NCBI RefSeq assembly: GCF_932294415.1
Contig: NC_065538.1
Location: 12,034,330 to 12,098,329 of the forward strand
Source of the DNA: Quercus robur
Lineage: Eukaryota; Streptophyta; Magnoliopsida; Fagales; Fagaceae
DNA: 64,000 nt
Reading direction: 5' to 3'
Shown: in pieces, positions 30,084-64,000 of the stretch
Position numbering within the stretch: position 1 is the stretch's first letter
Layout: each line of letters opens with the position of its first letter
Position numbers and translations under genes: made by a program
The notes under the pieces: model-generated
What the model was told of the DNA's origin: nothing
Databases searched by the model: none
What the model saw: only the letters and a program-made list of their open reading frames with translations

Positions 30084-30933
30084 TGATAGTTTTTAGACCC
30101 CTTAAACAATTGATTAAACCTAGATAATTAGCCAAGTTGTTACTTAGTCCAATTAAACAAGTCTAGGTTATACAATAACAAAGATCAAATCATGCATAGC
30201 AGCGGAAAATAAATAAGACAATGATATGATCACCTAGTAAACCAAACCGGTAAAAACCCGGGGAGGATTTGACCTAGCTATCCTCAAGGTAAACTTGAAT
30301 CCACTATCTTGAAAGAATCGAAGTTCATACAATAAGACTTACAAGCCCCCACGCTCGATTTCTTATTGCTACCAACCAGTAGAACTTACTGACACGACCA
30401 CGTGCAAGCTCCGAATCTACGGACTCGTTCTTTCTTGGATTCCCACCAACTACAAGCACACCCGCTTGTGTATTCTTTAAGTTTTAATGGCGGCAATTGA
30501 ATTGATCATCAAGGTGTAAATAAATCTTCTCCTTGAAAACCCTAAGTTTGTGTAAAGGAAAGCTCCTCTAGATCTCACAAGAGATTTACACAAACCGCAA
30601 AAATGAGCAACACTAAAACGTGGCTAGGGTTTGCCTTTTATACTTAGGACAAATAAGAAACGCTAAAAACGTTTTAAAACAAATAGGGCTGAGTTGGACG
30701 AATCTGTAGAAAAGCATTTTGCCCGAGCTTTGATCGGTCGCGCCTAAGCTTCGATCGATCGAGCCAGGCCGAAAGGCACAATGCCTCCTGCTTTAACTCG
30801 ATTCCAACTTTACATTGACACACAACTTTGAGCTAGCTTAAAACACTTCTAAACACATTGTTTTGATCATGGTTTGCCAACAATACACATTAGAGTTCTA
30901 AATACATAAAATCCTAAACTTTAGAACCTAACA
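30084..30933 (-). repeat. element A 3' LTR
   Basis: The 850-bp partner of 34240-35089. It contains the TCGATCGATCGA-rich segment at about 30729-30765 and the minus-strand TATA box near 30637-30644. Confidence 0.9.
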
Positions 30934-30948
30934 AACTCCCCCTTTGGC
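30934..30948 (-). promoter_or_regulatory. element A 3' polypurine tract
   Basis: On the minus strand GCCAAAGGGGGAGTT directly precedes the 3' LTR start TGTTAGG. This is the expected primer for plus-strand DNA synthesis. Confidence 0.75.
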
Positions 30949-33323
30949 AATCCGTGACAAAACACAACTTAGAAGCTCAAAGTTTACAAAATGAAAAGCC
31001 CTTTACAAAATAATGCTCATAAACCAAATTCAATCCTAACTACTATCCATCAATTGCAAGTGTAGACAGCAACTCAATTGAATCAACCTGTATATTTCCT
31101 GAAATACTAAACAAAATGCATAACTGCATGTGTGGAAAGAAAGACATATATACAATAATATGAAACAGAATATAAAAAACAAAAGTAAATTCTAACTCTC
31201 CCCCTAAGTTAGATACTTCAAAAAGTTTTTTATATTCTCCCCCTAAACAAAACAAAGAGGTCATCTATGTCTCCCCCTTTTTGTCACGTATTGACAAAGA
31301 CTACCTAATCAAAAGGTAGACAGAAAACATGCGCAACAAAGTAAGAGAAAATAGAGACAACTCCCCCTATGAAGAGCAACAACTCCCCTTAAGAACCACA
31401 AAGGTTAAAAAAAAAAATTTCCCCCTATAAAAATAGGAAAAACAAAACAAGTTTTGGGGAAAAATAAAGGGGTTGGGGATAAATAAAAAGACACAAACCA
31501 AGTTTTAAAAAAAAAAACTAAGTTGAGGATACACATGAAGAAAAAATATTCTCTCTTTCAATAAAATGCAAACATGGCACTATGTGACCCATAAACAATT
31601 GCATGAGTAGAGAAAATATTTGCACATTGATTATCCATCACATCTCTTAAAAAAAATATTTTCTACTGTTCACACATAAAAATAGCATATACTAGAAAGT
31701 ATATAACTCAAAAAATTAATCAATCAATTTTTAAATCAAGTTGAGTACCCAATGTAGCAAAGTGTATGCATGTTATGTGTGAAAACAATGAAAGATATGA
31801 CTGCAAAACTGCAAGATGGATACAAAAACAATCAATGCAATACATTTCATGTGAATCCTAAACATAAATGATGCATGGAAAAATCAAATTTTTGAAAAAC
31901 AGAGCAATTTAATGCAGAAACTCCTCAAAGCACAATATTTCATGAATAAAATGCATGAGTATGAGATGAAAAGTTAAAAAAAAAAAAAAACACTTGAATT
32001 CAACCCAAATCTTCCAAAAAAAAATTTCAATCAATTTGTCCTCAAAGCGCAAACATTAAACACATTTTGCATTAAAATCAAGGAACTTTTAATCTTGGAT
32101 GGCCAAAACAAGATCACACACAATATAATGTACCAAGTTTAGCAAAGAATAACTTGTGTAGTGTGTGCAACTAGCAAAAACTTGAAATACATGTGAGGTG
32201 ATATGTGAATAGCAATCAATCACAAAATCTACAAAATTCATCACATAGAATTTGAAAGAGACTATCACCTAAAGAGTTACATCATATAACTCCCACATCT
32301 CCTAGATCATAAGCTTGCAATCATGTAAGTTTCTTGTATTTATGCCTCATAATATACATTCCAATTTTAAGTTATGTGAGTTTGGCATCAAGCCTAATAG
32401 TACACACCAATTAGATTTTAAGAATTAAGCACTTTAACCGAGGCTTCACCTTATGTTCTTTTTGTGCATATGCTACACTTTCTTGAGCACAAAATCTTAT
32501 GATATGCACTAAGGTGTTCATGATTGGCTAGTGAACAGTGGTGAGATGGTTATTTATGCCTTTCTCAAAAGGTTCAAGTCCGACAGTCAAAGACATGTGA
32601 CTTCAAGATCAAGACAAAGTGATCAAAAACTATAAACATTTCTCACACAACATGCACTACAAAGCTCAAACTAGTAAAGTGCAATACAAGAAGCTCATCC
32701 AAGCTAAACAAGGTACATAAACTTGTTATGTAAAGATAATATGGCCAATCCTTGATTATAAATCCAAGATGTGAAAAACAAAATACAAAAATCTTTTTGG
32801 TTTTAAAAACTACATGACCAAAAACAAAAAAAAAACACATATTATGCAAAATGAACAATGCAAATGCAATGCATGACAGTGCTTAACTAAGCTATAGAGG
32901 GTACACAAACAAGAAATATCAATTTCTTAATTAACCCATGAGTACATGTACAAATTAGTACATACTCACACAAAATCAGAAATAGCTTAGCACTTATATA
33001 ACACATACTATTCAAGTTTCTCCACAATGTCAAGCATGTTCTAAATCAAGAGAGAGATATCATAATTCATGTAATCCTGAAGAAAAATAAAACTAGACAC
33101 AAAATAAAATATTTTTGTCTTTTTGAAATTTTTTCAATGTTTTTGGATTTTTTTTTTTTTTAAAAAAAACACGACCAAAAACAGAAACAAGGTATGTCCA
33201 CAAATAATTGAAAGAATTAAATTAGGGACAAGTCAGCAACACTCACCTTGGAGAATCTTTTCTCACCCATATAGGACGAGTCTTCGGCTTTATAGGTGAA
33301 AATCCATGAGAAGTAGAGTGTAT
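30949..33323 (-). other. element A 3' non-coding interior
   Basis: Low-complexity, A-rich on the plus strand, with repeated CTCCCCCTA words at 31195-31420 (GGGGGAG on the coding strand). A conserved purine block lies at 31270-31300. No open frame is supported; in the sister element C this zone holds the second gene. Confidence 0.6.
31270..31300 (-). promoter_or_regulatory. conserved internal purine block (element A copy)
   Basis: On the minus strand CTTTGTCAATACGTGAC is followed by AAAAAGGGGGAGA. The same block is found at 41010-41041, 48950-48981 and 63595-63628. Where the second gene is intact (48980) it starts within a few bases of that gene's stop codon. Its purine run resembles a second, internal polypurine tract. 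Confidence 0.6.
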
Positions 33324-34181
33324 TTAAGGAATTACACTAATCTTCTGAGAAAGACTAAAATCCTGCAAATTCCTTTCACAAGCCAACAAGCTCAAATTTT
33401 TCAAAAAAATATGAAACAATTTATATGGACTTATGGCAGGAGAAATATCATCACAAATCCTAGATTGAAACACAGAATGTTTAAATTTCAATTTATGACA
33501 ATTAAGACGAATGTGACCATGGATACCACAAAAGTTACAAACATGAACAAATTTAGGAACATCAGTATTCCTAACAACAAATCTAGTCTCAGATTTTGGT
33601 TTTTTCCTCAACAAAGAGCAATTTGGTCTAATATGACCAACAACACCACAAAGGTGACAGGTAGGCGCAAAAACAGATTTATTGTACTCTCTAATAGTAG
33701 GTTTAGACTTAGGTTTAGAAACTTCAGCGTCTACATCAGAAATTTTACCTTTGTCTAACCTAGCAAAATAAGCCTTTTCTTTATTATTCCTCTTAAAAGG
33801 AGGGATATAAACTTTCTCAGTTTTAGGCTTAAGAGAAACAGAAACACTTCTGTTATCAACAGCAGGCTTGGTACTAGTCAAATTTTCAATTTTAGCTTTA
33901 GATTCAACTAACTCTTGTTCCAAGCTTTTCATCTTCTCATCTTGAGAGGAAATTTGATTTCTCAAAAATTTATTCTTTTTATTAGATTCATCTAATCTAA
34001 CAATCAATTCCTCTTTTTCAAGATTAGCCAATTTTAACTCTTCCTTGAATTTCTTAGCAATTTTTATAGATTTCAATAATTCCTTACGAAGAGTTTCACA
34101 GGCATCAATAAAATCAACAGATGCATGAGCAGAAACATGATCAAAAAGACACTTCAAATTATCCATGACAACAGGGGTCAA
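33324..34181 (-). CDS. element A gag-like protein, coiled coil + two CCHC knuckles (285 aa)
   Basis: An open frame starts 59 bases inside the 5' LTR boundary. Residues about 30-105 are a charged, probably coiled-coil region (KEELKLANLEKEELIVRLDE). A basic YIPPFKRN motif follows at 125-132. Two CCHC zinc knuckles lie at residues 175-188 (CHLCGVVGHIRPNC) and 215-228 (CNFCGIHGHIRLNC). These would bind RNA and act in packaging of the element's transcript. The UBN2-type capsid region of copia gag is missing, so the protein may need to co-assemble with a complete Gag from another element. The last 50 residues, past the knuckles, look random and may reflect loss of the original stop. Confidence 0.8.
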   Translation of the reverse strand: MTPVVMDNLKCLFDHVSAHASVDFIDACETLRKELLKSIKIAKKFKEELKLANLEKEELIVRLDESNKKNKFLRNQISSQDEKMKSLEQELVESKAKIENLTSTKPAVDNRSVSVSLKPKTEKVYIPPFKRNNKEKAYFARLDKGKISDVDAEVSKPKSKPTIREYNKSVFAPTCHLCGVVGHIRPNCSLLRKKPKSETRFVVRNTDVPKFVHVCNFCGIHGHIRLNCHKLKFKHSVFQSRICDDISPAISPYKLFHIFLKNLSLLACERNLQDFSLSQKISVIP

Positions 34182-34225
34182 GGATCAGCTCTTAGATCAA
34201 AAGATCTAAAACAAAAGAGCAACCT

Positions 34226-34237
34226 GCTCTGATACCA
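34226..34237 (-). promoter_or_regulatory. element A primer-binding site (initiator tRNA-Met)
   Basis: TGGTATCAGAGC on the minus strand, two bases after the 5' LTR. It matches the 3' end of plant initiator methionine tRNA, the usual primer of copia elements. Confidence 0.9.
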
Positions 34238-34239
34238 CT

Positions 34240-35089
34240 TGACAGTTTTTAGACCCCTTAAACAATTGATTAAACCTAGATAATTAGCCAAGTTGTTACT
34301 TAGTCCAATTAAACAAGTCTAGGTTATACAATAACAAAGATCAAATCATGCATAGCAACGGAAAATAAATAAGACAATGATATGATCACCTAGGAAACCA
34401 AACCGGTAAAAACCTGGGGAGGATTTGACCAAACTATCCTCAAGGTAAACTTGAATCCACTATTTTGAAAGAATCGAAGTTCATACAATAAGACTTACAA
34501 GCCCCCACGCTTGACTTCTTATTGCTACCAACCAGTAGAACTTACTGACACGACCACGTGCAAGCTCCGAATCCATGGACTCCTTCTTTCTTGGATTCCC
34601 ACCAGCTACAAGCACACCCGCTTGTGTATTCTTTAAGCTTTAATGGCGGCAACTGAATTGATCATCAAGGTGTAGATAAATCTTCTCCTTGAAAACCCTA
34701 AGTTTGTGTAAAGGAAAGCTCCTCTAGATCTCACAAGAGATTTACACAAACCGCAAAAATGAGCAACACTAAAACGTGGCTAGGGTTTGCCTTTTATACT
34801 TAGGACAAATAAGAAACCCTAAAAACGTTTTAAAACAAATAGGGCTGAGTTGGACGAATCTGCAAAAAAGCATTCTGCCCGAGCTTCGATTGGTCGAGCC
34901 TAAGCTTCGATCGATCGAGCCAGGCCGAAAGGCACAATGCCTCCTGCTTTAACTCGATTCCAACTTTACATTGACACACAACTTTGAGCTAGCTTAAAAC
35001 ACTTCTAAACACATTGTTTTGATCATGGTTTGCCAACAATACACATTAGAGTTCTAAATACATAAAATCCTAAACTTTAGAACCTAACA
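34240..35089 (-). repeat. element A 5' LTR
   Basis: 850 bp. It has a minus-strand TATA box TATAAAA at 34792-34798, and the tandem TCGATCGATCGAAGCTT / TCGACCAATCGAAGCTC pair at about 34881-34920 downstream of it. Transcription would start near 34765 and run toward lower coordinates into gag. Confidence 0.9.
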
Positions 35090-36600: not shown

Positions 36601-36827
36601 ATCTTAAGAGGTAAAAGGCTAGGGTTTTTTTTTTTTTTTTTTTTAAATCTTATCAAGGCCCATATATTTACTTATGCCACCTCACTTGGGTTTCATATTC
36701 CATAATATTTATCAGATTTAAATATTTTAGGTCCAAACCAATTAAATCCATTTAATTGTGGGCCTCCTTTTAAAATTACTTATAAGAAGTAAATTGGTAT
36801 CAAAATTATGGGGTATTACAATCCTAG
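35095..36827. other. no gene; short CCCTTGCTAAGGA repeats and microsatellites
   Basis: CCCTTGCTAAGGA occurs four times between 35238 and 35370, each followed by a different spacer. An (AT)n(GT)n tract is at about 36556-36602 and a T run at about 36625-36644. No coding frame recognised. Confidence 0.55.
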
Positions 36828-36994
36828 CTCATATGTTTGGAGAGATCCAATGAGTTCTTGAATCTTGATCTTGTCCAAATCTTTACTTTCCTCAATGGCG
36901 GTGACCTTAGCCCAGAAACTTTTGGGTAAGGATCTTAAGATCTTTCTCACCACTTTGGCGTTTCAATCTTCTCTCCAAAATTGAGTTTGGCAAT

Positions 36995-38443
36995 TGTTAG
37001 GATTAGTGCCCTAAAATCCTATTGTATGATGCTATGTATGATATTATGTATGACATTATGTTATAAATAATGAAGTTGTTTTATTATCTAAAATAATGGT
37101 GACATGAATATTTGGACATTATCATATAGTTCTTGAGATGCATAATATGTGATTTATGTGATTTAGTTATAGAAGATATAAATCACAAGTTCTTTGTAAA
37201 CTAAAAATCTTAGTTTGTAGTCGGTGATGAAATTGGGTATTTCGTCTGTGAAGACTATAACGTGTCAACTAAGATGGTCTGTCTTAATTATGGAAGTGGT
37301 GACTTCTAGTTGATATGTTGATGTGTCTTAAATGTATAAGACATATTGAACTGGACCATTGTGAGATTAATTATTCTAGTAATGACTTTCAACTGAAAAT
37401 AAATCTTACGACTTTAATTTACATAAACTCTCAATCCTGAGAGGATAATGAACCCGATCATGAAATGTAGGTTGTTTTGATATATCAAAAGTGAGATCTA
37501 ATTCAACGGTCAAAATCTCAATATGTTGGGCAGCCACACGTAGTGTTAAAGGAACACATATCCTCAAGATGAAATTCATAGTCTCTTTGTAGAGATATAA
37601 AATATTCCCTTGAGATAAGTTTAATGAGTTTGGTTATTCAGAGTGTTTAGCCTAACCACTTTAGTAAAGAGTTACTAAAGCTTATATTTTATGAAATTTG
37701 ATTTCATAAATATATATGAATAACTTAAAGGATTAAACCGGGTACTCAAGGATCAAGAGGTAGTAATTTTCAAAGTGGCAGTTATATATTATGACTTTGT
37801 ATTACTACGAATATTTTCATGAAGGGGTTAATTGTTTAGATAATAAAGTCTTGGGATTTAATTTTATTAATAAAGCCTAGAGTGCAATTATATTTATATA
37901 GTGGTATTAAATATAATTAATGGTAACTTTGCGCTTGTTAAGAGTTGAGAGATAAGTCTGAAACCCATTGGAGCTAGAGTTTTATTTGTCTCTTTAGTCC
38001 AATCCTAAGCCACACACTAAAGCCCAATTGGGTTGGCCCAAAAGGCTAGCCCAATTAGATAATCAGTTATTTGTTTATTTAATAAGAGTTATTAAATAAA
38101 GTAACTGCCTTTTAACAGTTTATAAAATAAAAAAAAATTAAAAAAAAATGTACGTACGATTAAAAGAGAAATAAGACAATTTTCTCAAAACACATTCTCT
38201 TTTGAACAAGAGCGTACATAACTGATTGAGAGACCACACATCTTGGGCATTTGTGGAATTGGGGTGAAGATTGAAGGTTTTTCAAAGTTCTTTTGTTTTG
38301 AATTTCACTCCATCAAAGTACGCTTTTCTATTCTTCGTTTCTAAAATTCTAGATATTCCATGTTATCTCATATGAATGAACAAGATACTTGTGTTGCTTC
38401 CGCTATGTGTTTTGTATGAGATGCAAAACTAGTTTTTCCAGCA
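36995..38443 (+). mobile_element. solo LTR, copia type, 1449 bp
   Basis: Begins TGTTAGGATTAGTGCCCTAA and ends TTTTTCCAGCA, flanked by the perfect 5-bp duplication GCAAT (36990-36994 and 38444-38448). No primer site, polypurine tract or coding region lies inside, so the interior was probably lost by recombination between two LTRs. It sits within the gag fragment described above. Confidence 0.85.
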
Positions 38444-38542
38444 GCAATCACAATCTCATTGAGTCTTCCATAAAAGTAATCAAATGACTCATCGTCACTC
38501 ATCTTCACTTCCTCGAATCGAGTAGTAAGCATTTGAAGCTTG

Positions 38543-38767
38543 GTGTCCTTGACCTTCTTGGTTCCTTCGTAGGTAGTCTCAAGAATGGGCCACGCCTCTT
38601 TGGCGGTCTTCACATGCGAAATCCTGTGAAACTTATCAATAAATACACCACAGAAAATAGCATTAATAGCTTAGTGTCCTTGACCTTCTTGGTTCCTTCG
38701 TAGGTAGTCTCAAGAATGGTCCACATCTCTTTGGCGGTCTTCACATGCAAAATCCTGTGAAACTCAT
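38543..38767 (-). repeat. 131-bp duplication within the gag fragment
   Basis: GTGTCCTTGACCTTCTTGGT starts at 38543 and again at 38674. Both copies run through the ETTYEG and ISHVK codons with a few differences. A duplication inside an already dead gene. Confidence 0.85.
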
Positions 38768-39870
38768 TGAAAGTTCACAAACGTGTATAAACACCCTTGA
38801 ACTTTTAGACCCCCAAATACAAAATAACCAATTCAAGCTTTATGACAAACAACTAGTGTGCGGAAAATGAACATAAGCTATAAACAGAATTGGAAATCAA
38901 TCTAAGCCAATTATAAATCACATCCACAGCAGAAAATAAAAGGCAAAGATAAAGAGAAGAGAGATGCAAACACAATGACAACACACGATGTGTTATCGAA
39001 GAGGAAACCGAAGCCCTCGGCGTAAAACCTCTCCGCCGCCCTCCAAGCGGTCAATAATCCACTAGAAAATGCAGTTGGGATACATGAACAGCAATAGACC
39101 CTCCAGGCCTAATCTACCCGATGTACCTAAGCCCTCCAAGCTTCTTGCTCCAACGAGGTTGCGCCGAACCTTTTTCTTTTCTAGCTTACCGGATTCCGCT
39201 ACTAGACCGTAGCATCCGCCATCCTTGGCATCTTCCAATGCTTCCCAAAGCTCTAAAAACACTCAACACTCTGAATGGGTGTGGGTAGTGTTTGGATAGA
39301 AATCTCCTCTCAATAGGTATGACAATGAGAGAGGGAATGAGAAGAGACTACAAAGATTTCTCTCTAAGAATGAGTAGCTCTCTCTAATTGGGTGGGTGTT
39401 TTGAAGAAACCTCTCTTAGGGTTTTTCTTTCTGAATAGCCACACATATTTTGTGGGAATGAAGGGTATTTATACTGGTGTGAGAATGGAATACGAAGAGT
39501 CAGTTTTTCCAAAAACAGGGCTGGCTGGCGACTTGACCTCGCGACTTGACTGAGTCGCGAGTTCAAGTCGCGAGCTAACTTAATGGCCAGTCTGGATTTT
39601 TGTCGTGTAGTGCTCCAGGTGGCGTGACTGTTCAGCTCCCCTGCATGCTCTGCACGTGAGCAACTTTTGGCGGCTTGCAAGCCGCGAGCCACCTGCGAGT
39701 CCTAGCCGCGAGTCTCTGGTTCACTGCACTGTCTTGAGCATTTCTTCACACTCTCTCACACACTACCCTTACATGATTCCCACCTAAATACAAGGTTTCT
39801 AAGTGCTATATTACAAGCAAATTTGTCATGGAATAAAGTCAACACATGGTTGATTAAATTCAACCTTACA
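38768..39870 (-). repeat. element B 3' LTR
   Basis: 1103 bp. On the minus strand it starts TGTAAGGTTGAATTTAATCA and ends GAACTTTCA. TCGCGA-rich motifs lie at about 39525-39570 and 39665-39715. The minus-strand polypurine tract GCCAAAGGGGGAGAT abuts it at 39871-39885. Confidence 0.9.
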
Positions 39871-43057: not shown

Positions 43058-44080
43058 TCAACCATAGGAACCCTTCCTCATCCAAACGGAACGATTGTAT
43101 GGAATGAGTGTCTCAAGAGAAGCGAGACGAGGGTTGGAAGAATGAGAACCGGAGATGCACATAGTCAAGGAGTTAAGAACATTAAACATTTTCTTTAACA
43201 ACATGCTATTTTCACTCAAATCTAGTTTACTCTTTTTAGCACAACTTCTAAAAAGCTCAAGTTTCTCTTTTCTTTTGATTCTCTTAAGAGCTTGAAACTT
43301 AGAGCAATGAGGTCTTAGATGACCAAAGGCACCACAATGGTGACAAACAATGTGTTTAGGTCCACTAGGCTTTTTGAGAATGGATCTAGCAACATGGTTT
43401 TGTTCCCTCTTCAACTTATGACATTGAGGTCTTATATGACCAATCACACCACAATGGTGGCAAGTTGGAACAAACTTAGATCCATCCAAAGCCTTAGGTT
43501 GAGACCTAAACGAAGGTTTTGACTTAACAGCCTTTCTCTCCACCTTTTGATTTCTTTTATGTGGAGGAATGTACACCGATTTGTCCTTTAAGGTAGAACA
43601 CACACTAGGCACAAAATCGGGTACCACAACATGATTGCAACAAATATTATCATCCATTTTATCAATGGGTTTAGCAATCAAACACTTGGCATGCATCTTA
43701 AGAGATTCATTTTCACATTTAAGATCATCAACAAGTTTGTTAGACAAAACAAGTTTAGCATCCAAGTCCATATTCAAACATTCAAACTCTTTCAGCTTTT
43801 TAAGAGAAATTTCAGCAAGTTTTTTATATTTCTCAACCAATTTGTTGGATTCATTGAGCTTAGCAATCAAATCATCATTTTCACAAAATAACTTGCTCAA
43901 ATTCTTTTGAAACTTCTTAGCATTTTTCTTCAAGAGTTTGTCAACAACACCCATGGATTCAAATAACATGTCATCACACTTATGAGGATTAACACTCATA
44001 GAGGCATTTTCACAAACATGTGGCATGTTACATTCATCACCAACCAAATCATGCAAAGAGGCATACAAAGCACAATCCAT
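43058..44080 (-). CDS. element B gag-like protein, coiled coil + two CCHC knuckles (about 340 aa)
   Basis: The frame is open further upstream into the LTR, but the likely start is the Met at 44080, since the primer site lies upstream. Counting from the longest frame, residues 75-165 are lysine/leucine-rich and probably coiled (KLNESNKLVEKYKKLAEISL). VYIPPHKRN is at 198-206, and CCHC knuckles are at 236-249 (CHHCGVIGHIRPQC) and 275-288 (CHHCGAFGHLRPHC). The layout and the YIPP-x-KRN motif match element A. As there, the UBN2 capsid region is absent, so it is a nucleocapsid-like protein probably dependent on a partner Gag. Confidence 0.82.
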   Translation of the reverse strand: MDCALYASLHDLVGDECNMPHVCENASMSVNPHKCDDMLFESMGVVDKLLKKNAKKFQKNLSKLFCENDDLIAKLNESNKLVEKYKKLAEISLKKLKEFECLNMDLDAKLVLSNKLVDDLKCENESLKMHAKCLIAKPIDKMDDNICCNHVVVPDFVPSVCSTLKDKSVYIPPHKRNQKVERKAVKSKPSFRSQPKALDGSKFVPTCHHCGVIGHIRPQCHKLKREQNHVARSILKKPSGPKHIVCHHCGAFGHLRPHCSKFQALKRIKRKEKLELFRSCAKKSKLDLSENSMLLKKMFNVLNSLTMCISGSHSSNPRLASLETLIPYNRSVWMRKGSYG

Positions 44081-44142
44081 GGCAAATAAACACAAGGGGT
44101 CAAGGATCACACTTAGGTATTTAAACCACAACAAGTGTACCC

Positions 44143-44154
44143 GCTCTGATACCA
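44143..44154 (-). promoter_or_regulatory. element B primer-binding site (initiator tRNA-Met)
   Basis: TGGTATCAGAGC on the minus strand, two bases after the 5' LTR end. Confidence 0.9.
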
Positions 44155-44156
44155 AT

Positions 44157-46123: not shown

Positions 46124-46199
46124 TACAAGGACCGTTGATAATTGTTACAGTATAACACCAAGTATAAGTCACAAGTGTTATAGTGTAAAAATTAATCAG
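46124..46199. other. junction sequence between LTR fragment and integrase
   Basis: Short AT-rich segment with no feature recognised. Confidence 0.4.
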
Positions 46200-46778: not shown

Positions 46779-47037
46779 GGGGAAAGACAGATTATCCTAG
46801 ATGAGTTAGATCCTTCTATTCGTAGGAGTCTAGTATCTAGGAACTGGGTATCTTTGTGTGATGTTTTTGATCCTCCTCTTGCTACCTTGATTAGAGAGTT
46901 CTACTTGAACCTCTCTATTTATTCTAAGGATACAGGTGGTCATTATTTGACTACTTGGATTAGAGGTAAAGAGTTTAGGATAAATAAACATGTAGTTTCT
47001 GAAGCTTTAGGTGTACCTTTGGTTTGTAAACCCACAT

Positions 47038-48147: not shown

Positions 48148-48162
48148 ATCTCCCCCTTTGGC

Positions 48163-48979
48163 TATTCCGTGACAAAACCCTAAAACAGACTCTAGACTTA
48201 ACATGTGAGTTGGGAACAGTTGAACAAAACTCACTCACACTTAACTCTAGAAGCTGTGAAGCACTTGAATCATATGACCATAAACTCCTGAAACACAACA
48301 ATACACCATGATCATTGTAAGCAGAAAATTATAAATGCATATGAAACAGGCAATATGAGATCAAGCAAAGATGGAGTTAATAAACAAACCATGGCTTGAT
48401 CAATCAAGTGAACACCACAAGGTAGTGATCACAGTGCTCATTCACACTTGGAATGAACACAAGGACATACAAGTTAACAAGCACAAGGCAAGACACTTGT
48501 ATGCACAACACTCAACCAATGCATAGCACACAAGGCATATGCATCTAGGAACAATCCTACAAGGGCACAAGAGTGACAGTACATAAACCAAAATGCAGAA
48601 CATTTAGATTAAAGTACTGATTTCAACATAGCATAAAGGCTGCACTTAAGCAAGGTACATACCATAAAGCCTACAAACTATGCATAAAACATTAACCCTA
48701 AAAGCTTACAAAAGCATATGGGTACAAACCAAATAACTTCCTGAAAAACATCATCAAACATATATTAAAGTTTAAACCAAGAGTATATGAAAGGAGTTAG
48801 GAACATCTATATACCAAAACACAGTGTATCAAAACCATAAAAACACTAAAATACCCAAATCATAAACATATATAAACACATTACTCCCCCTCAACTAATT
48901 ACTCCCCCTTAAGAGTTGCTTTTCTGCTGCTCAATCATCAATGAACTTCTCCCCCTTTTTGACAGGAATGGCCAAAGGG
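48163..48979 (-). other. element C 3' non-coding interior
   Basis: A-rich on the plus strand, closely similar to 39900-40450 of element B (GATCAAGCAAAGATGGAGTT, CACAAGGCATATGCATCTAG). Repeated GGGGGAG words lie at 48885-48960 on the minus strand. No gene. Confidence 0.7.
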
Positions 48980-48981
48980 TC
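48950..48981 (-). promoter_or_regulatory. conserved internal purine block (element C copy)
   Basis: On the minus strand the stop codon TGA of the second gene is immediately followed by CCCTTTGGCCATTCCTGTC and AAAAAGGGGGAGAA. This is the reference copy of the block shared by elements A and B and PF20167 copy 2. Confidence 0.7.
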
Positions 48982-50056
48982 ACTTGTCATGCTGAGTTGT
49001 GAAGCTGTCAAGTGTAGCAGCCAAGACATCAATCTGGTCTTGCATGGCTCTCATCCTGTCAGAGTGCTCAGTTTGAACTGCCCTGATCCCATCAAGCCTT
49101 TCCAGAATGATCTGGAAAGCATCTGGAGGTGTGTCTGCAGAGGTTGAAGCTCTGTGTCTTTTGCCACTTCTCCTAGGTGTTGAAGTTGATGCAAGCCCTG
49201 CTGCCTCTGCTTCAGTCTCCATTGGAGCAGCCTCTCCTTCATCACCTTCATCTTCTTCTCCTGGAAGCCTGACACTTATCCTTTTGCAGGTAAGCTTGTT
49301 GATTGCAGAGGGTGTAGACATGGGACTGATGTCTTGAGGGATTGGAACACCCTTACTCCTAAAAATCCTCATTAGCAAACTTGGAAAGATCAATTTAGGC
49401 CTAGAGGTTGTTCTAGTCTCATCCACAATGGTGTCATAAAAGTGGGAACTTATGTCTATGAAGTTCTTTTCTTTGAGATCCATCAGAAAGACTGCTCTAG
49501 CACAGTTGATTGTAGTCAATTTCCTAATGGGATAGAGGTTAAACATCATAATTATTGTAAGGCACCTCATGTCCACTGGAAAGGCAGTGGTATTCAAACA
49601 TTTCCCTTCTCTCTGCCCACCTATCCTTTGTTGAATTGTTTCAATAGACACACTCCTATCCTTGTAATTGATAAATTCTTCATCATCTAATCCTTCAAGC
49701 CCTAATGCATCATCTATGACATGAGCATCCAAGACAAATTCTTTACCCCTCACCCAGCAACTCAATTCATTATCCTTTATCACAGCATTTGAGTAAAATT
49801 CCCTAATTAAGGGTTCACACACAACAGGGAAACCACCCAGAAGCTTTTCCCATCCCCTTCCTTTAAAACAGCTGGGAATAAATGTTTGCCTTAAGTCTTC
49901 CAAATCCACAAATCTCTCTTGAATGATTCCTGCATTTAAGAAGTTATCCTTGTATCTCTCAAAGTGGTGAACTGACCTAAACAATCTAGAATTCATCTTT
50001 AATCTTTTGTCAGCCTTCTTTGCAGTAGATTTCTTCTTCTGAGGTGAGGGAGCCAT
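48980..50056 (-). CDS. element C second protein, PF20167-like (358 aa)
   Basis: Intact frame. The N-terminus is basic (MAPSPQKKKSTAKKADKRLK). Residues about 30-235 resemble the putative plant transposon protein domain: FERYKDNFLNAGIIQERFVD, CEPLIREFYSNAV, CWVRGKEFVLDAHVIDDALG, LFPSLLMRIF-like region near 225. A Glu/Ala-rich linker (265-290) leads to a short basic patch (RRSGKRHR) and a C-terminal heptad-like helix (ILERLDGIRAVQTEHSDRMR, residues 309-350), probably a coiled coil. No catalytic motif is visible. Its position after gag, where pol would be in a normal copia element, suggests an accessory role in the element's cycle, but the function is unknown. Confidence 0.82.
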   Translation of the reverse strand: MAPSPQKKKSTAKKADKRLKMNSRLFRSVHHFERYKDNFLNAGIIQERFVDLEDLRQTFIPSCFKGRGWEKLLGGFPVVCEPLIREFYSNAVIKDNELSCWVRGKEFVLDAHVIDDALGLEGLDDEEFINYKDRSVSIETIQQRIGGQREGKCLNTTAFPVDMRCLTIIMMFNLYPIRKLTTINCARAVFLMDLKEKNFIDISSHFYDTIVDETRTTSRPKLIFPSLLMRIFRSKGVPIPQDISPMSTPSAINKLTCKRISVRLPGEEDEGDEGEAAPMETEAEAAGLASTSTPRRSGKRHRASTSADTPPDAFQIILERLDGIRAVQTEHSDRMRAMQDQIDVLAATLDSFTTQHDK

Positions 50057-51524
50057 CTGTAACTTGACGATTTTGAGCTATAAGAGTGCAACACTAGAGA
50101 TTGGAAAAGGGAGCACGGAGTGTTTGGGAGGGAGAGAGTTTAGAGAGAAGATGAACAGTCACAAAAATTCGAGGGAAAAACTGAAAAAGTTTAAAAACTG
50201 CTCCTGTTTCTGCAAAACACGCGATTTTCGCGACTGGATTAAGTCGCCACACAGTCGCCAGCTCAAGCCGCCAAAGCACTCAAGAACAAAATTTTGAAAA
50301 ATTTTTCTAAGTGTTTTTCGCGACTGGAAGGTCTACCCGCGAGTGAGTCGCGAGCTGAGCCGCGAAAATCTCTGAGTGAACCTCGCGACTGGACCTTCCA
50401 CTCGCGAACAAGTCGCCAAAAATGACCAGCGAAGATGCGACTGAGGCTCGTGACTTGACATACCCGCGACTGAGCCGCCAAAACAGGGCAAAACTGTATT
50501 TTTGAAATTTTCAGATTTTTCCAACAAAATACTTTCCAAAAACACCTAAAACACTCAAAAATCTTTTTGTGCTTGAATTAACAAAGATAGAGCATGTGAA
50601 AACACATTTTATCAAGTACAATCACACAAATGAATATGGCAATTATTGAACATAAACTTGTGTGTTGTGTGTGGATATCAACAATGAGATAGTCCTTTGT
50701 CTAATGTGAAGCTTCAATGATCAATTCAACCAAGGCATACACAATTAGCACTAGATCATGTGGCCCATCTCAATTATAGAAATATGTATATATGACCTCC
50801 CACACAACTTGATAACATAACTTGGAGCTTTTCATTTGACTCCACTATCAATCATAACATTTGATCTTTTTGATCTTTTTGAGGCAATCATCTCTCATTG
50901 TGAGAGGGATAGATAACATTTCTCTTTGAAGAACAGGCCTTTGGCCTTTTTGAATGAAATTTCACTTTTAATATAAGGTCGCTTACCCTTTTTCCTAGTC
51001 AAATACTAGAATGTGCGACAGGCTTTTGCAGCTCAATATCTCTTTTCATTTGGAGATTTACATTTGGTGAGCTCTTTTTAGCAAAACAAAAAAAATAAAA
51101 AGTGGGAAGATATATAGACACAAGTCTATGCATGTCTCAAGATCAACATAATCATTCACTAATCATTCATGACAAGTTTGAAGATCTATTTACAACAATC
51201 ACATAGATTTCAAGATTTTTCCCACAGTGATATGAGTGCATGAAAACAAGCAATGCTCGAAAATGCACAAAGCCATTAGCACAAAGGTACAAGGCAAAAC
51301 AAGTTTTGAGACAAAAACTCAACAAAGTCAATCAAGCTTTTTGATTTTCTAATTTTTATGTGATTTTTGGATTTTTGACACATGAAACAAAAAGATTGAT
51401 AAAACAAAATTAATAAATATTCACAAGAAGACAAGCAAACAACCAAAATCAAAAACAACAAGCATACCAAACAAACATAGTCACAAAGCATAGGAAGTAT
51501 TAATGCATGGACATGTTGTAATGC
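50057..51524 (-). other. element C inter-ORF leader
   Basis: About 1.5 kb between gag and the second gene. Nearest the second gene (50215-50480) is a dense cluster of TCGCGA, AGTCGC and GCGACT words like those in the LTR, then a CT-rich stretch (minus strand, 50140-50095) resembling a 5'UTR. The rest is AT-rich and matches 42000-43000 of element B. It may hold an internal promoter or a splice acceptor for the second gene; no TATA box is obvious. Confidence 0.55.
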
Positions 51525-53495
51525 TTATGCATGAGTACCCCTTTTCACCCACACGTCACTTGCGTTTGGGGTGATTTCCTTAAAGGATTGGGTACGGGAG
51601 TTAGGGCTTTCAAACCTTCGTGAGAAGCTTTCCAAGCAGTTGGTGAATGCACCAATCATCTTCATCACGTTCATCATTCCGGGATCTCCATTTTGCTCTC
51701 TAGATTGATCACCTGCCCAAGTTCTCCTATCAATTCTGGGTCCTCCTGACCTTTGAGGAGTTGCACTGTTCTTTGCTCTCAGCTTTTGGCAATTTGGTCG
51801 AGTGTGCCCTTGAAGTCCGCAATAATGGCACACATACGTTCCTCTAGGACCTCTTTGTGGTCGTGGACGTGACTTGGCACGAGATTCAGACCTGCCCACA
51901 GACTGATTACGATGATTCAGCATCCGTTGGTCCACCACATTCTTCTTCTGCTCCACCTCGAGCTTCACACCAGTAAGTTCAGCTACAACTGGATCTTTGG
52001 CCTTTACAAACTTCACTTCTTTGGTGACATTTCCAGATGAACTACTTCCTCCGGTATATCCCAGTCCGGATTTGTCTGAAAAGCTCTTTTGAGAAGATAT
52101 AACCTCATCTAGCTTCTTGGTGGTGACCCTCTCTATTTTAGCATTTGCTTGCACAACCTCATTCTCAAGAAATCTCACTTTAGTGTAAGCTTCGGACAGC
52201 TCACCATTCAGTGTTTCAATCTCGCATTTGGCCTCCCTATACCGGATTAGGAGACTTTTGTAGTCCTCCTCAGCCTTCTTCATTTTTCTCACAGCAGCCT
52301 TGGCCACCCTTGTGTATTCACCCGACTTCTCCAAGAGTGAGTTATAATTCTCTTGAAGAGTTGCTGTGCTTTCTTCTTCTTCAGCTTCTGATTCTTCAAC
52401 AATTCCTAGTGAGTCATCATCACTATGTTCTCCAAGGTCTTGAACAAGCAAATTCAACTCATCCGAAGACTCAACATGAGCAATAGTCATGAAAGCTGAA
52501 TAGTTCCCCTCTCCATCACAGCTCTCTTCAGATTCTGAGTCAGACGAGTCTGAGTCACTCAAGGTCGTGGCATACACTTTGCCTTTCGATTTCAAATAAT
52601 TCGGACATTCCTTCTTAAAGTGTCCATGCCCGTTGCATTCAAAACAAGTGACACCTTGTGTGGATTGAGATTCTTTTCCATCTTTCCTTTTGAAATCCCT
52701 CTTTTCCCTTCCAGAATTTTGGAATTTTCTCTTATCATCAAATTTTCCATTGTTTTTGAATTTCAAAAACTTTCTGAAATTTTTAACAAGATAGGCTACA
52801 TCTTTGTCAACCATATCTTCTCCCGATGAGCCTTGATCTTCCACCTTCTCATTAATGGTCTTTAGAGTAAGGGATTTACTCTTCCGTTGATTGGGCAGCG
52901 ACATCTCATAAGTCTGTAGAGAACCAACCAGCTCCTGTACCTTGATGTCGTCAAGATCCTTGCTCTCTTCAATGGCTGTCACTTTAGCACGAAAACTTTC
53001 CGGCAGTGATCGAAGGATCTTCCTTACAATCCTTGAGTCCTCCGTTTTCTCCCCCAAGTTAAACTTACTGACAACCACCTCATTTAGCTTCCCATAGAAA
53101 GAGTCAAAAGACTCATCCTCACTCATTTTAAGCTCCTCAAACCGAGTGGTCAGCATTTGTAACTTGGTGTCTTTCACTTTCTTCGTGCCTTCATAAGTTG
53201 TTTCCAGAATCTCCCATGCATCTTTGGCAATGGTAATGTGAGAAATCCTGTGAAATTCATCTGGAGACATACCACAGAAAATAGCATTTAGTGCTTTACT
53301 GTTAGCATTAGATGCAGCAAGTGCTGCCTTATCCCATGTGGATTTGGCTGCCTCAGGTTTGGTCCAACCAATCTCAACAGCATCCCACACTGATTCATCA
53401 ATAGAGCATAGAAAAGCTCTCATACGAACCTTCCAAAACGCATAATTACTTCCATCAAAATATGGAGGTGCATTAAGGGATTGAGACCTATCCAT
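51525..53495 (-). CDS. element C Gag (UBN2 capsid-like + CCHC + coiled coil + CCHC; about 656 aa)
   Basis: The likely start is MDRSQSLNAPPYFDGSNYAF; the frame is open eight codons upstream. Numbered from the longest frame, residues 20-215 are the UBN2-type copia Gag region (FWKVRMRAFL, AWEILETTYEGTKKVKDTKL, VRKILRSLPESFRAKVTAIE). A first CCHC knuckle lies at 292-305 (CFECNGHGHFKKEC), followed by an acidic Ser/Asp/Glu stretch (320-385), a probable coiled coil (385-470) and a second CCHC at 564-577 (CHYCGLQGHTRPNC). It ends in a stop where intact copia elements continue into protease. It should form particles and bind RNA. Elements A and B keep only the coiled-coil and knuckle half. Confidence 0.92.
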   Translation of the reverse strand: MDRSQSLNAPPYFDGSNYAFWKVRMRAFLCSIDESVWDAVEIGWTKPEAAKSTWDKAALAASNANSKALNAIFCGMSPDEFHRISHITIAKDAWEILETTYEGTKKVKDTKLQMLTTRFEELKMSEDESFDSFYGKLNEVVVSKFNLGEKTEDSRIVRKILRSLPESFRAKVTAIEESKDLDDIKVQELVGSLQTYEMSLPNQRKSKSLTLKTINEKVEDQGSSGEDMVDKDVAYLVKNFRKFLKFKNNGKFDDKRKFQNSGREKRDFKRKDGKESQSTQGVTCFECNGHGHFKKECPNYLKSKGKVYATTLSDSDSSDSESEESCDGEGNYSAFMTIAHVESSDELNLLVQDLGEHSDDDSLGIVEESEAEEEESTATLQENYNSLLEKSGEYTRVAKAAVRKMKKAEEDYKSLLIRYREAKCEIETLNGELSEAYTKVRFLENEVVQANAKIERVTTKKLDEVISSQKSFSDKSGLGYTGGSSSSGNVTKEVKFVKAKDPVVAELTGVKLEVEQKKNVVDQRMLNHRNQSVGRSESRAKSRPRPQRGPRGTYVCHYCGLQGHTRPNCQKLRAKNSATPQRSGGPRIDRRTWAGDQSREQNGDPGMMNVMKMIGAFTNCLESFSRRFESPNSRTQSFKEITPNASDVWVKRGTHA

Positions 53496-53552
53496 CTCAA
53501 AAAGGGAGTCAAGGATCACACAATGGTAATGAAACCAAACAGCTGTGTACCC

Positions 53553-53564
53553 GCTCTGATACCA
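53553..53564 (-). promoter_or_regulatory. element C primer-binding site (initiator tRNA-Met)
   Basis: TGGTATCAGAGC on the minus strand, two bases from the 5' LTR. Confidence 0.92.
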
Positions 53565-53566
53565 AT

Positions 53567-54676
53567 TGAAAGTTCAAAAACGTGTACAAAAACACTTTTG
53601 AACGTTTAGACCCCCAAAAATAACTTAACCAACTCAAGCAATACGTCAAACAACTAGTGTGCGGAAACTTAACACATGCTATAATATGAAATTGGAAAAA
53701 CAACTATCTAAGCCAAAACAAAATAAAACCACAGCAGATAATGTAAAGGCAGAGATAGAGAGGAAGGAAGATGCAAACACACAGATAACACCCGATGTGT
53801 TATCGAAGAGGAAACCGAAGACCTCGGCGAAAAACCTCTCCGCCGCCCTCCAAGCGGTAATCAATCCACTAGAAAATACAGTTGGGATACAAGGACAGCA
53901 ATAGACCCTCCAAGCCTAATCTACCCAGTGCACCTAAGCCCTCCAAGCTTCTTGCTCCAACGAGGTTGCGCCGAACCTTTTTCTTTTCTAGCTTCCCGGA
54001 TTCCGCTACTACACCGTAGCATCAACCAATGAATATTGGCTCCTTCCTAACTGCTTCCCAGAACTCCAAACGACTGTCTCACAGAGATGATAATGGTGAG
54101 AACCAGGTTTGGTATAATGCCTCTCAAGGTTTTGACAATGGAGAGGAAGAGAGTGAGGGATTTTGATGAGACTCTAAGGTAGGGATTGTGTGTGAAACAA
54201 TCTTGTTTTTCTTTAGGGTTTCTCTCTCAAAATTCTCTCTGGAAGCTCTCTTTCAATCGTGGGTTAAAGGGGTATTTATACTGGAGTGGAGAGGAATGTG
54301 AAACGTCAGGTTTTTCCAAAACAGGGGTGGCTCGCGGCTTGACCTCGCGGCTTGACCAAGTCGCGAGATCCAGTCGCGAGTTAACCGTATGGCCAGTTGT
54401 CCTGTTTTGTCCTGTAGTGCTCCAGCTAGCATGACTGTTCATCTTCCAGCATGCTTGGCACGTGTGCAGCTTCTGGCGGCTTGCAGCCGCGAGTCCACCC
54501 GCGAGTCCCAGCCGCGACACTCTGTTTTCTTGCACACTCTTGAGCAATCTTCACTCTATCTCACTCACTACCCTTACAACAATCCCACCTAAATACAGGG
54601 TTACTAAATGCTGAATTACAAGCAAATTTGGCACGGAATAAAGCCAATTAGATGGTTGAATTAATTCAACCTTACA
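53567..54676 (-). repeat. element C 5' LTR
   Basis: 1110 bp. Minus-strand TATA box TATAAATA at 54273-54280. TCGCGA/CGCGAG motifs lie on its downstream and upstream sides (54330-54385, 54480-54520). Differences from the 3' LTR were seen only near 53643, 54542 and 54662. Confidence 0.93.
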
Positions 54677-55405
54677 CACATATCCATACACTGAGTCACC
54701 TCCTATAAATGATGTGATGTCTTTACTTTGTGGAAGAGCAATAACTTGGGGATCTAAACTAAGGATAAACTCATGTGAGTTTACTAAGCTTAACCATCTT
54801 TATTTAAGGATAGTTTGTCATAATATCTACCCTATCTCTCATGTTCACACAATTCCTTTAGACAGGTGTGCTTTTCTTTATGCCTTTATCACAGACGAGT
54901 CCATGTGTTTTCCTTCCCTATTCATTCAAACCATTGTTGAAATTTATAGGAGTAAGTCCAAAGCACAAAAGCTGTTCTTTCCTGTGTTTATATGTAGGGT
55001 GTTGAATTTTCTAGGGTTAGAAGACTTTCCTGCTCTAGAATTAGTTCATACCATTGCCCCTATTGGAGCCACTTTTCTCAGACAGCGACAGGCTTAGACG
55101 AAGAGTGCTGAACCAAGCACTGGGACTTCAAAGAAACCAAAAGGTGATGCTTCTACTGCAGCTCCTGCCTCTGGTGATCAGCCTGTTGCTAAGGAGGTTC
55201 ATGTGGATCCTACTAGTATGATGATATTGTTGACCCTACAGTTACCCCTCCTCTCTCACTCTGTGCCATGATGGAGTCCTTTATGACTACTCAAGCGGCT
55301 CATGGACAACTTATTGATGAGTTACTCATAAAGGTTGCTACCCTGAGAGCAGATTTTGCTGAGTATAAGAGTGTTTTCCCACCTCCTCCACCCTCTGACC
55401 CTTGA

Positions 55406-55599
55406 TGGTTGCCTTTGGAAGGGGGAGTAGGTTGTTAGGTTAGAGGTTTAGGGCTTTTGTATTTAGGGGAGAGCAAGGAGGTTTTGTATATAGGGAGAGT
55501 TTTGGGGAGTTCTTACTTTGATGTATTTTTGTATATGTGGTTGTATATATTTATTTCTTCTGTTCTTGTTTCACAAACATTGATTTGATTCTTGATTAT
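55406..55599 (+). other. 3' flank of PF20167 copy 1
   Basis: Contains GGAAGGGGGAGTAGG and further TTTAGGGGAGAG purine words, as in copy 2 (63625-63715). It then reads TTCTTGTTTCACAAACATTG, shared with copy 2 at about 63783. The solo LTR follows. Confidence 0.6.
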
Positions 55600-61045: not shown

Positions 61046-62441
61046 TTGTTTGGTTCTAAAGATTTAGGATTAAATGTTTAGAATTCTATTTTGTTTGTGT
61101 TGGCAAACCGAGAACAAAACATGTCTACCCCTCTTTAGGTGATAGTCACTTTCAAACATATGTGAATGATAATGTAAAAATTGTGCTTATTTTTCATCTA
61201 CATATCACCTTTTGGATAACTCAAACACTTACTAGTTACACACACCACAAGCAAACCTTTGTTAAACTCTGTACATGTGATTGTGTGCTAATTTTTGAGG
61301 CCTTCCAAAATTTTACTTCTTGATATGTTTAATACTTTTTGGGGGTGTGAGGTAAGAAATGTTTGATGAAATTTTTTTTAGGCTTAACAAAGAAATTTTT
61401 TTTTTAAGGGAAAGAATTTTTGAAAACATTTGGAATCATTAACATGCATCCCATATCATAAAAATCTGTTTTATAAATGTTTCTGTAGAAAATTTCTAGG
61501 TTTTTAATTTTTAATTTTTTTTTTCAGGATTCGATCGATCGAACCTATTTTAGGACCGATTGAAAAGAAAAGAAAAAATCCATTTTTAAGGCTTAAACTC
61601 TCGGGTTGCCTCGATTCCTCACCCAATTCCTCTCAATCAATTGGATCTGTTTTTAATTGTTTTTTTTATTCCTGCCTTGATTCCTCTCGACCAATTGAAA
61701 ATAATGTTTTAAAAACAAATAGGAATCAAATCACAGTTCTTTAGTGTTTTGTCCTCTTCTTCTTTGATTCCTCTAACGATCCCTTTCACTAAAAATTTTT
61801 GTCTTTTTTTGAGTCAAAACTTCAAGGGTTTTGTTCCTCAACACCTAGTAAGTCTCTTTTACCCTTTCTTTTTGGTTAAATTACATGCATACATGCATTT
61901 TCATCAATTTTTTTCAAATTTTCGTACTAAAGAAATTTTGGGGTTTTTGATGATTTTGAGTGTTTTAATCCAATTTGTTGGATGGGTTTTTGTTCATGCA
62001 TCATATAAACATGATCCTTAGGCTTTAATTTCAAATTTTTCATAATTTCTTCAAAATTTCAAAATTAGGGTTTATGTGTTCTTGAGAATTTTGGGGATTT
62101 TGTTCAATTGGGATAAATTGATTGAAATTGTCTTATGATATTGCTTAATTGAGTGATTATAACATGTTTTATACTTGTTGTGTTGTTGAATTGATCAATA
62201 TAAGAATATTTGAAAATTAGGGTTTTCAAAATTGGGGATTTTGCTAAATTTCTAATTTTCTTGGTCAATTTTCAAAATTGAGATGAAATTGAACTATTTT
62301 AGAGCATTAGATCATGCATCATATGTGTACTTGTGTCATGCGTCATATAGTTTTTAAAAATTTCACGTTATCCTGTGCTCTAACTCTATTTGATGCAGTC
62401 TGCCCTTGGTTTTTGTTTATGTTTTTTTTTAAACCTTCAGA
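61046..62441 (+). other. LTR start and leader of the copy 2 element (deleted)
   Basis: 61046-61127 repeats the LTR start (GGTTCTAAAGATTTAGGATT, TTGGCAAACCGAGAACAAAA). At about 61130 it jumps to interior sequence (CTTTAGGTGATAGTCACTTT) that matches the reverse complement of 32150-32280 in element A, so the LTR and interior are joined by a deletion. A GATTCGATCGATCGAACC cluster lies at 61529-61546 and a CT-rich leader at 61740-61870, the same position relative to the second gene as the TCGCGA cluster in element C. Confidence 0.6.
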
Positions 62442-63593
62442 CATGTCTCTTAAGGTTGGTAGAAAATTCAAAACCAAAGGCAATAGAAACTCTTCATCTT
62501 CTTCTTTTGCCCCTTCTTTGGTTGATAGGGTTAGGTTTCTTTCTTCTAAGATTGAGGAAGTCTTTGAGACCTTAACCAAGTATAGGTCTATATGGGGAGA
62601 GAGACAGATTTTCCTAGATGTGTTAGATCCCTCCATTCGTAGGAATCTAGTGTCTCAAAATTGGGTTACCTTGTGTGATGTCTCTAATCCTCCTACTGCT
62701 GCTTTGATTAGAGAGTTTTACTTAAATCTTTCTATTTATCTTGAGGATACAGGTGGTCATTATTTGACTACTTGGATTAGAGGTAAAGAGTTTAGGATTA
62801 CTAATGTGTAGTTTTTGAAGCTCTAGGTGTGCCTTTAGTTCGTAAACTCATATATCCATACACTAACTTTCTTCCTGTAGATGATATGTCTTTACTTTGT
62901 GGAAGATCAATTTCTTGGGGTTTTGAACCAAGGATAAACTCATGTGAGCTTACTGAGCTTAACTCTCTTTACTTAAGAATAGCCTAGCATAATATCTTCC
63001 CTATTTCCCATGTCCACACCATTCCTATAGATAGGTGTGCTTTTCTCTATGCTTTTATCATAGATGAATCTATGTATTTTCCTTCCCTATTCATTCAAAC
63101 TATTGTTGATACTTATAGGAGTAAGTCCAAAGCACAAAAGTTGTTCTTTTCTATGTTTATATATAGGGTGTCGAACTTTCTAGCGTTAGCAAACTTTCCT
63201 CCTCTAGAGTTAGTTCATATCATTGCCCTTATAGGAGCCTCTTTTCTTAAACAGTGATAGACTCAGATGAAGATTGCTGAACCAAGCACTGGGACTTCAA
63301 AAATACCAAGAGGTGAAGTTTTTACTACAGCTCCTGCCTCTAGTGATATGCCTGCTACTGAGGAGGTACATGTGGATCCTACTGTAGCTGTGGATCCTTC
63401 TAGTGATGATGATGTTGTTGACCCTACTGTTACCCCTCCATTCTCACTCCGTGCCATGATGGAGTCATTTATGACTACTCAGGTGGCTCATGGACAGCTT
63501 ATTGATGAGTTACTCACTGAGGTTGCTGCCTTGAGAGCTGATTTTACTGAGTATAGGAGTGCTTTTTCACCTTCTCCACCCTCTAATGCTTAA
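62442..63593 (+). pseudogene. PF20167-like second gene, copy 2 (frameshifted)
   Basis: Starts MSLKVGRKFKTKGNRNSSSS, giving the likely native start of the gene in this subfamily. The domain follows: ILDVLDPSIRRNLVSQNWVT-like (here FLDVLDPSIRRN), ALIREFYLNLSIY, TTWIRGKEFRI. One base is missing near 62805 relative to copy 1, which brings a TAG at 62809-62811. Further stops occur before the C-terminal part at 63267-63593 (SLRAMMESFMTTQVAHGQLI, a helix-like tail). Not functional as a full protein. Confidence 0.78.
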
Positions 63594-64000
63594 TGGTTGC
63601 CTTTGGCAATTCGTAACAAAAAGGGAGAGTAGGTTTAGGTTTAGGTTTGGGTGATGGCTCTTGTATTTAGGGGGGGTAGAGAGTTTTTGTATTTAGGGGG
63701 AGTTGCTTAGATTTTGAGACAAGAGATTTTGATGTATTTTTCTTTTCTCATTGTTTTGAGGTATATATGTTTTGTTTTCTTGTTCTTGTTTCACAAACAT
63801 TGTTGGTTCATTAACTATGATAGTATATTTGACATTTATACATTTGATATTCTGTCTATTTTTCATGTTTTGTGAATTTAAGTTCAGTTTTTATTTATTG
63901 GTTTTGTACTGTATTTTCCACATATGCGTTTATGGTTTGTTTTCAGTGTTTCAAGAATTTATAGGTTAATTCTTTCAATAGCTGCTATCTATACTAGCAA
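63594..64000 (+). other. 3' region of copy 2 with the conserved purine block
   Basis: Within ten bases of the TAA stop, CCTTTGGCAATTCGTAAC is followed by AAAAAGGGAGAG (63598-63628), the same block as in elements A, B and C. Purine words TTTAGGGGGGG and TTTAGGGGGAG follow at 63666-63708. The rest matches 59172-59380 and runs off the window. Confidence 0.7.

Follow-up and report, generated by a model that had tools for sequence, protein, structure and literature searches.

Why would a retrotransposon that has dispensed with pol keep a second gene beside its Gag? The question is raised by a 64-kb stretch of the 785.7-Mb Quercus robur genome (contig NC_065538.1; hereafter the window), in which an element on the minus strand that we call C (47038-54676), a complete, pol-less long terminal repeat (LTR) retrotransposon, carries a Gag and, downstream of it, a gene of the PF20167 family (Transposase_32; Pfam gathering cut-off 45 bits). 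Relatives were sought genome-wide. Our best explanation, to which as a whole we give a probability of about 0.47, is that C belongs to a young, abundant, non-autonomous family derived from Sireviruses, and that its second protein is a VANC-like anti-silencing factor with the RM boxes of the element, short CG-rich palindromes, as targets; the likeness to VANC comes from a fold model, and DNA binding and anti-silencing are what we infer.

C is bounded by LTRs of 1110 bp (5' LTR, 53567-54676; 3' LTR, 47038-48147) that differ at 3 of 1110 sites, and by a perfect 5-bp target duplication, CACAT, on the left (47033-47037) and on the right (54677-54681). At a plant substitution rate of ~1.3e-8 per site and year, this divergence corresponds to an insertion age of the order of 0.1 million years. 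Two bases past the 5' LTR lies a tRNA-Met primer binding site (TGGTATCAGAGC, 53553-53564), followed by a copia-type Gag of 656 amino acids (aa) (51525-53495; Retrotran_gag_2, PF14223, 6.7e-30) with two CCHC-like regions, for which the Pfam zf-CCHC score is below the cut-off. Further downstream, all on the minus strand, come an array of RM boxes with eight distinct [CT]CGCG[AG] sites and then TTTAAA (50205-50475), the second gene (48980-50056, 358 aa), three AGGGGGAG octamers resembling polypurine tracts (PPTs) (48884-48956; at 48884, 48902 and 48949) and the terminal PPT, also AGGGGGAG (48150-48157), followed by AT and then TG. A Pfam profile check, suggested by an earlier sequence-only reading of this DNA, placed the second gene in its family (frame 48980-50077, PF20167 4.5e-18, 66.2 bits). 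Within the scanned frames no pol frame was seen between the gag stop and the 3' LTR, and the earlier claim that C and its minus-strand neighbours A and B (see below) lack protease, integrase and reverse transcriptase held: besides the Gag and PF20167 frames, the scan took in 10 of the 69 frames of at least 50 aa in the three elements (those scanned being of 59-144 aa, all on the minus strand), and none of the 10 had a Pfam match at 0.01, to pol or otherwise.

RM boxes are concentrated in two places. With the pattern CGCGA/TCGCG, which was chosen after being seen and of which overlapping matches were counted, the LTR of C has 9 matches (shuffle mean 0.80, maximum 6), equal to seven distinct [CT]CGCG[AG] sites and clustered ~160-345 bp into the 5' LTR with TATAAATA at 397, and the 1468 bp before the second gene have 14 (shuffle mean 0.59, maximum 4), equal to eight distinct sites at ~1055-1310 of that stretch, with TTTAAA following at 1330. 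The pattern is absent from gag, the second gene and the 3' part of C, and the first 30000 positions of the window hold one match. The 27 relatives counted have 4-9 matches in their LTR and 11-17 upstream of the gene. An unbiased test for enriched 8-mers was clear for the C LTR (0/200 shuffles); among eight other PF20167 loci it found enrichment at L003 and L005 (0/200 each) and L001 (1/200) and none at L002, L004, L006, L007 and L008, of which L007 nevertheless has 10 RM matches upstream.

C has many near-identical relatives. Of 11443 first-look Gag candidates, 67 were scored and listed, C included, all at 97-100% identity; the 29 best-scoring after C, which are not a random sample and leave 37 listed ones outside the set, were studied over Gag, its two flanks (1.5 kb each) and another 2.6 kb downstream. 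Their Gag DNA is 97.1-98.9% identical to that of C, and their 5' LTR is 95.5-98.8% identical over about its full length in 28 of the 29, with a partial match in L015. Downstream of Gag, 28 of these 29 best relatives carry a PF20167 gene, in three versions: T1, that of C, in 11, T2 in 16 (in one of them seen in the second half only) and T3 in one; at locus L063 the leader region begins in a T2-like way. Sixteen of the 28 genes have an intact frame (eight T1, seven T2 and the T3). Between versions the proteins are only 29% (T1 and T2), 30% (T1 and T3) or 42% (T2 and T3) identical, and all three reach the PF20167 cut-off (66.2, 56.4 and 75.9 bits for T1, T2 and T3 respectively), as do all 150 candidates scored in the genome search for this family (of 6384 at first look). 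The T1 coding sequence of C has zero CpG in its 1077 bp, compared to 0.56-0.59 of expectation in T2, T3 and a version linked to a transposase (see below), and the stretch after T1 or T2 is likewise almost CpG-free.

Homology between elements with different versions is gradually lost inside the 5' exon and picks up again ~110-136 bases past the stop of the gene, near the AGGGGGAG block, and hence the exchanged unit comprises the gene together with leader, intron and 3' end. Judged from these alignments and the Gag tree, divergent versions of the second gene are swapped as a cassette on one backbone that is 95-99% identical. On the Gag tree of 30 copies, C included, the types need 7 changes when 2 is the minimum possible, well supported branches by themselves force 2 (T1) or 3 (T2), and T1 or T2 formed a single group in 0/200 bootstrap trees. 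Weighing against repeated exchange, the types are more clustered than in shuffles (3/200 reached so low a value), no more than 5 of 27 inner branches carry a star and the bootstrap is unsettled, and the tree could be obscured by recombination within Gag; precisely how many swaps took place is uncertain. No type-specific 8-mer was enriched in the T1 intron or in the T2 and T3 upstream stretches, and a switch of targets along with the cassette therefore stays unsupported.

The second gene is kept under selection. Pooled pairwise dN/dS was 0.138 for gag (30 rows; codon-bootstrap 95% interval 0.10-0.19; choosing relatives by Gag similarity pushes this value, not those of the second gene, downwards), 0.210 for T1 (10 rows; 0.13-0.34) and 0.236 for T2 (12 rows; 0.14-0.35). 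L014 (not included) and L031 (divergent, with a broken frame) were left out for T1, and L029 (partial), L018, L022 and L028 (different length) for T2; rows with inner stops (1 of 10 for T1, 5 of 12 for T2, 5 of 30 for gag) were retained with those codons skipped. Moreover, in intact rows (25 gag, eight T1, seven T2) the nonsynonymous to synonymous ratio of variants common to at least two copies is 0.12-0.19 of the neutral expectation, compared to 0.41-0.43 for singletons. The sequence-only reading had taken the second protein to belong genuinely to the life cycle, kept while pol was lost, and had named dN/dS as a check and, as the contrary outcome, a gene missing from most copies or evolving neutrally; carriage by 28 of the 29 close relatives and values of 0.21-0.24, well below 1 for both T1 and T2, support its view.

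The gene also has an intron, which C lacks. In all 27 copies in which the start of the gene can be seen (a count that leaves out L029 and L034) GTATGG occurs at the point where C runs directly into ATG (50056-50057), preceded by AG in 26 and by AA in one, and in 26 the CAG of the 3' end abuts the start codon site, one T1 copy having ATA instead. This GT-AG intron is 572-605 nt long in T1 and 694-705 nt in T2; the T3 intron would have its 3' end a few bases further upstream. C is without exactly this stretch, and the simplest reading is that it descends from a full-length RNA that was spliced at the leader intron before reverse transcription. With ACAG at both ends of the T1 intron, a deletion between these repeats would leave an identical junction; splicing is favoured because the splice signals are conserved in T1, T2 and T3.

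What might the second protein be? Its core was computed to have a fold matching VANC21, with a disordered linker and a long C-terminal helix, in comparisons limited to 123 and 367 PDB chains. VANC21, the one solved structure of like fold found, acts by methylation loss (PMC5735166). The VANC proteins of VANDAL elements, which are Mutator-like elements (MULEs), resemble the second protein in predicted core fold, in a short motif (in C a putative target) repeated in the non-coding parts of the element, in diversified versions and in introns, as described in PMC5735166 and PMC10398659. They differ in that the gene of C is retrotransposon-borne and has no VANC sequence match or DUF1985, and its binding and demethylation activities are postulated. 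No sequence homology to VANC was found, 13 PF20167 members giving no DUF1985 match at E 10. The genome itself gave two weak DUF1985 matches, both below cut-off; one of them, at L069 (1378-1890, minus; 8.1e-7, 29.5 bits, cut-off 35.1), has a match to the plant mobile domain as well (1.8e-8, 34.4 bits, cut-off 34.9), and the protein possibly links the two families. Nine plant mobile domain matches lie within ~0.2 Mb at G000:C37:13204498-13419556.

C is laid out like a Sirevirus that has an ENV-like gene and RM boxes but no pol (PMC2829016). Shared features are the primer binding site, the AGGGGGAG PPT repeated after the extra gene, the AT/TG junction and the copia gag (PMC2829016, PMC6317226), as well as palindromic CG-rich boxes in the LTR and before the extra gene with a TATA after the boxes; the box core is TCGCGA-like in C and CGG-CCG in Sireviruses, for whose boxes no shared binding factor was identified (PMC2829016). 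C differs in lacking pol, in that its extra gene belongs to PF20167 and models like VANC, and in that this gene is swapped among near-identical backbones; since no SIRE-lineage pol frame was seen, we file C as a non-autonomous Sirevirus derivative, not a member. Extra 3' open reading frames (ORFs) are described in 74% of SIRE elements, in 19 groups with little similarity and hence with doubt over any function (PMC6317226). PF20167 itself is carried by the extra ORF of sunflower Athila, whose protein is predicted to be nuclear and has a similar predicted architecture of strand blocks split by helices, with terminal helices; Athila is a Gypsy element, and no function or VANC match is reported in the available part of that paper (PMC11728184). 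PF20167 was thus already known from an LTR element, contrary to what the earlier reading implied. In the literature covered, outside which most subscription journals fall, PF20167 was found by accession as the Athila extra ORF only and nothing was found linking VANC to LTR retrotransposon genes, a question that PMC12844716 calls open for Tork and Athila ORFs; the name 'putative plant transposon protein' turns up in association studies. TR-GAG elements, of which sunflower offers a case, are defined by gag as their only gene; C shares with them the LTR pair, gag and lack of pol, and differs in its second, selected gene.

Elements A and B had been grouped with C and two plus-strand gene copies as one family of common layout, and here the picture is less uniform. 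A (30084-35089, minus), an older Gag-only relative, has LTRs 97% identical, no RM core and an imperfect target duplication (CTATC/CCATC); B (38768 to ~45141, minus) has LTRs related to those of C, the 5' one truncated, and keeps RM cores, and no target duplication was seen for it. All three have paired LTRs, the tRNA-Met site TGGTATCAGAGC and a AGGGGGAG PPT at the 3' LTR, and to this extent the common layout stood; the copia gag domain was found by Pfam in C only, and the zinc knuckles of A and B, too, score below the cut-off. The proteins of A (a 286-aa frame, 33327-34184, minus) and B (43061-44155, minus) match only the C-terminal part of the C Gag, with 22-26% identity (29% to each other), and no PF20167 gene was found in either using tblastn and a hidden Markov model (HMM) of 13 family proteins. 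A and B are older, Gag-only and distant relatives of C, not copies of the same design, and, like the plus-strand copies, they do not have the gene set of C. Between them (36819-38768, minus) lie fragments 75-78% identical to parts of the C Gag, the remains of another C-type element. Elsewhere in the window, 3726-5246 (minus) has Tnp2/Transposase_21 and Transpos_assoc frames of a CACTA-type transposon, and 11207-12004 (minus) a DUF4283 frame.

The plus-strand copies were rightly recognised as second genes, here of another version, T7, and both are broken and without any Gag match on that strand of the window; they are not elements of Gag plus second gene. C inserted into one of them, splitting it into 46779-47037 and 54677-55405, the latter with the frame broken near 55223 and followed by a PPT-like octamer at 55420; a copia integrase fragment (46098-46535; GAG-pre-integrase 9e-14, rve 8.1e-5) precedes the 5' part of the gene, the two together spanning 46098-47037. 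The other (62311-63593, with AGGGGGAG at 63695) is seen by HMM at 62311-63254 as three open pieces in two frames. An integrase fragment also runs into a PF20167 gene at L004 (761-2112), ~0.1 Mb away on the same contig, and such junctions hint that pol-bearing elements with a PF20167 gene exist or existed. Given the PPT-like octamer after the stop and a nearby A-type LTR in the same orientation, we read T7 with moderate confidence as retrotransposon-borne, its own element being damaged.

A PF20167 gene also occurs beside a DNA transposase. A 389-aa PF20167 frame sits in a repeat of >10 kb, two places being 98.95% identical over 10 kb, and ~7 kb upstream, in an adjoining 8-kb piece, is an 875-aa MULE transposase frame (PF10551 1.5e-19, DBD_Tnp_Mut, SWIM). 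Three adjoining pieces, 8, 10 and 8 kb long, have 11, 8 and 9 copies of the motif TAACTCGA/TCGAGTTA (shuffle means 0.12-0.19, maximum 2), partly as one per unit of a ~154-bp tandem repeat; C is without this motif and the MULE pieces are without TCGCGA. From adjacency and common motif, transposase and PF20167 gene would form one element, of which the transposase piece was studied in one copy and no borders were found by one self-comparison. This very large young repeat (L070, L071, L072, L073) also holds several small ORFs of unknown type, a B3-domain frame and motif-bearing tandem repeats. In a 13-protein tree, in which the program flags long branches, the MULE-linked row among them, this version groups with T7 (100/100), apart from T1, T2, T3 and T5. 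With T7 read as retrotransposon-borne, we are moderately sure that PF20167 genes crossed between element classes.

A VANC-like escape system best explains the sum of these features: a selected, intron-bearing internal gene, a VANC21-like fold, boxes common to it and the LTR promoter, a MULE-linked relative with its own array, and exchange of divergent versions. C would provide Gag itself, along with a DNA-binding protein that acts in the nucleus, and would rely on a relative with pol for protease, integrase and reverse transcriptase. The second gene would be a unit of its own inside the element, with RM-box array, TATA-like site, 5' exon, intron, ORF and PPT block, and its protein, self-associating through the long helix, would bind RM palindromes at two sites, its own promoter and the LTRs, and keep both from silencing, as VANC21 does for VANDAL21. 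Divergent versions would persist and pass from element to element, probably through template switches in reverse transcription, since different versions might evade silencing by the host or match different targets. Several observations weigh against this: the region upstream of the gene in C is borderline in the unbiased 8-mer test (18/200), two of six control stretches of the window outdo it (8/200 and 5/200), and the sharing of one array by T1, T2 and T3 finds no explanation in the model.

The nearest competitor, in our view unlikely, is an activator of transcription that binds DNA at its own LTR and internal promoter with no effect on DNA methylation. The RM clusters just upstream of TATA-like sites in both places suit such a protein, as does the predicted match to a DNA-binding fold, and it is the action of VANC21 through methylation loss (PMC5735166) that would argue for anti-silencing instead. 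Rather less probable is a role in the particle, as Gag partner, in RNA packaging or in the use of foreign pol, with swapping following the available partners; the long C-terminal helix and basic stretches, the need of a pol-less element for a helper and the integrase-PF20167 junctions would fit, whereas a PF20167 gene beside a MULE transposase, in a type of element without Gag or RNA stage, and the sister relationship of that version to T7, would not.

Envelope, passenger and one-time capture were also considered and ranked low. An envelope-like or movement protein, as the Sirevirus 'ENV' has been read, is improbable: its location before the PPT cluster and the upstream RM array do match the Sirevirus ENV gene (PMC2829016), but by hydropathy T1 has no clear membrane segment (maximum KD19 1.18) and the single T2 stretch (1.9-2.1) falls inside the modelled globular core, the fold model is that of a soluble protein, and the sunflower Athila protein is predicted to be nuclear (PMC11728184). 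We give hardly any credence to a passenger gene, picked up once and hitchhiking since, for which the failure to find a second gene in A or B and the 12 of 28 copies without an intact frame in view could be cited; retention in 28 of the 29 close relatives, dN/dS of 0.21-0.24 and the exchange of three versions with some version retained oppose it.

In plant LTR retrotransposons the label envelope-like has been given to extra 3' genes without proof. What the sequence-only reading could not reach is that the PF20167 gene of the C family has an intron, is swapped as a cassette and models like VANC21; one model, a DNA-binding protein and its box array, would tie diversified extra genes to RM boxes. 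More tentatively than for C itself, LTR retrotransposons may carry a VANC-like, sequence-specific anti-silencing system in which the 'envelope-like' PF20167 gene encodes the trans factor and the palindromic boxes of Sireviruses are the targets, a module that Mutator-like DNA transposons would also have, that would have crossed between the two kinds of element and that pol-less parasites would pass among one another as a cassette. If true, retrotransposons, and not just VANDAL DNA transposons, would encode their own escape from silencing, and a pol-less parasite may persist by contributing or exploiting that escape.

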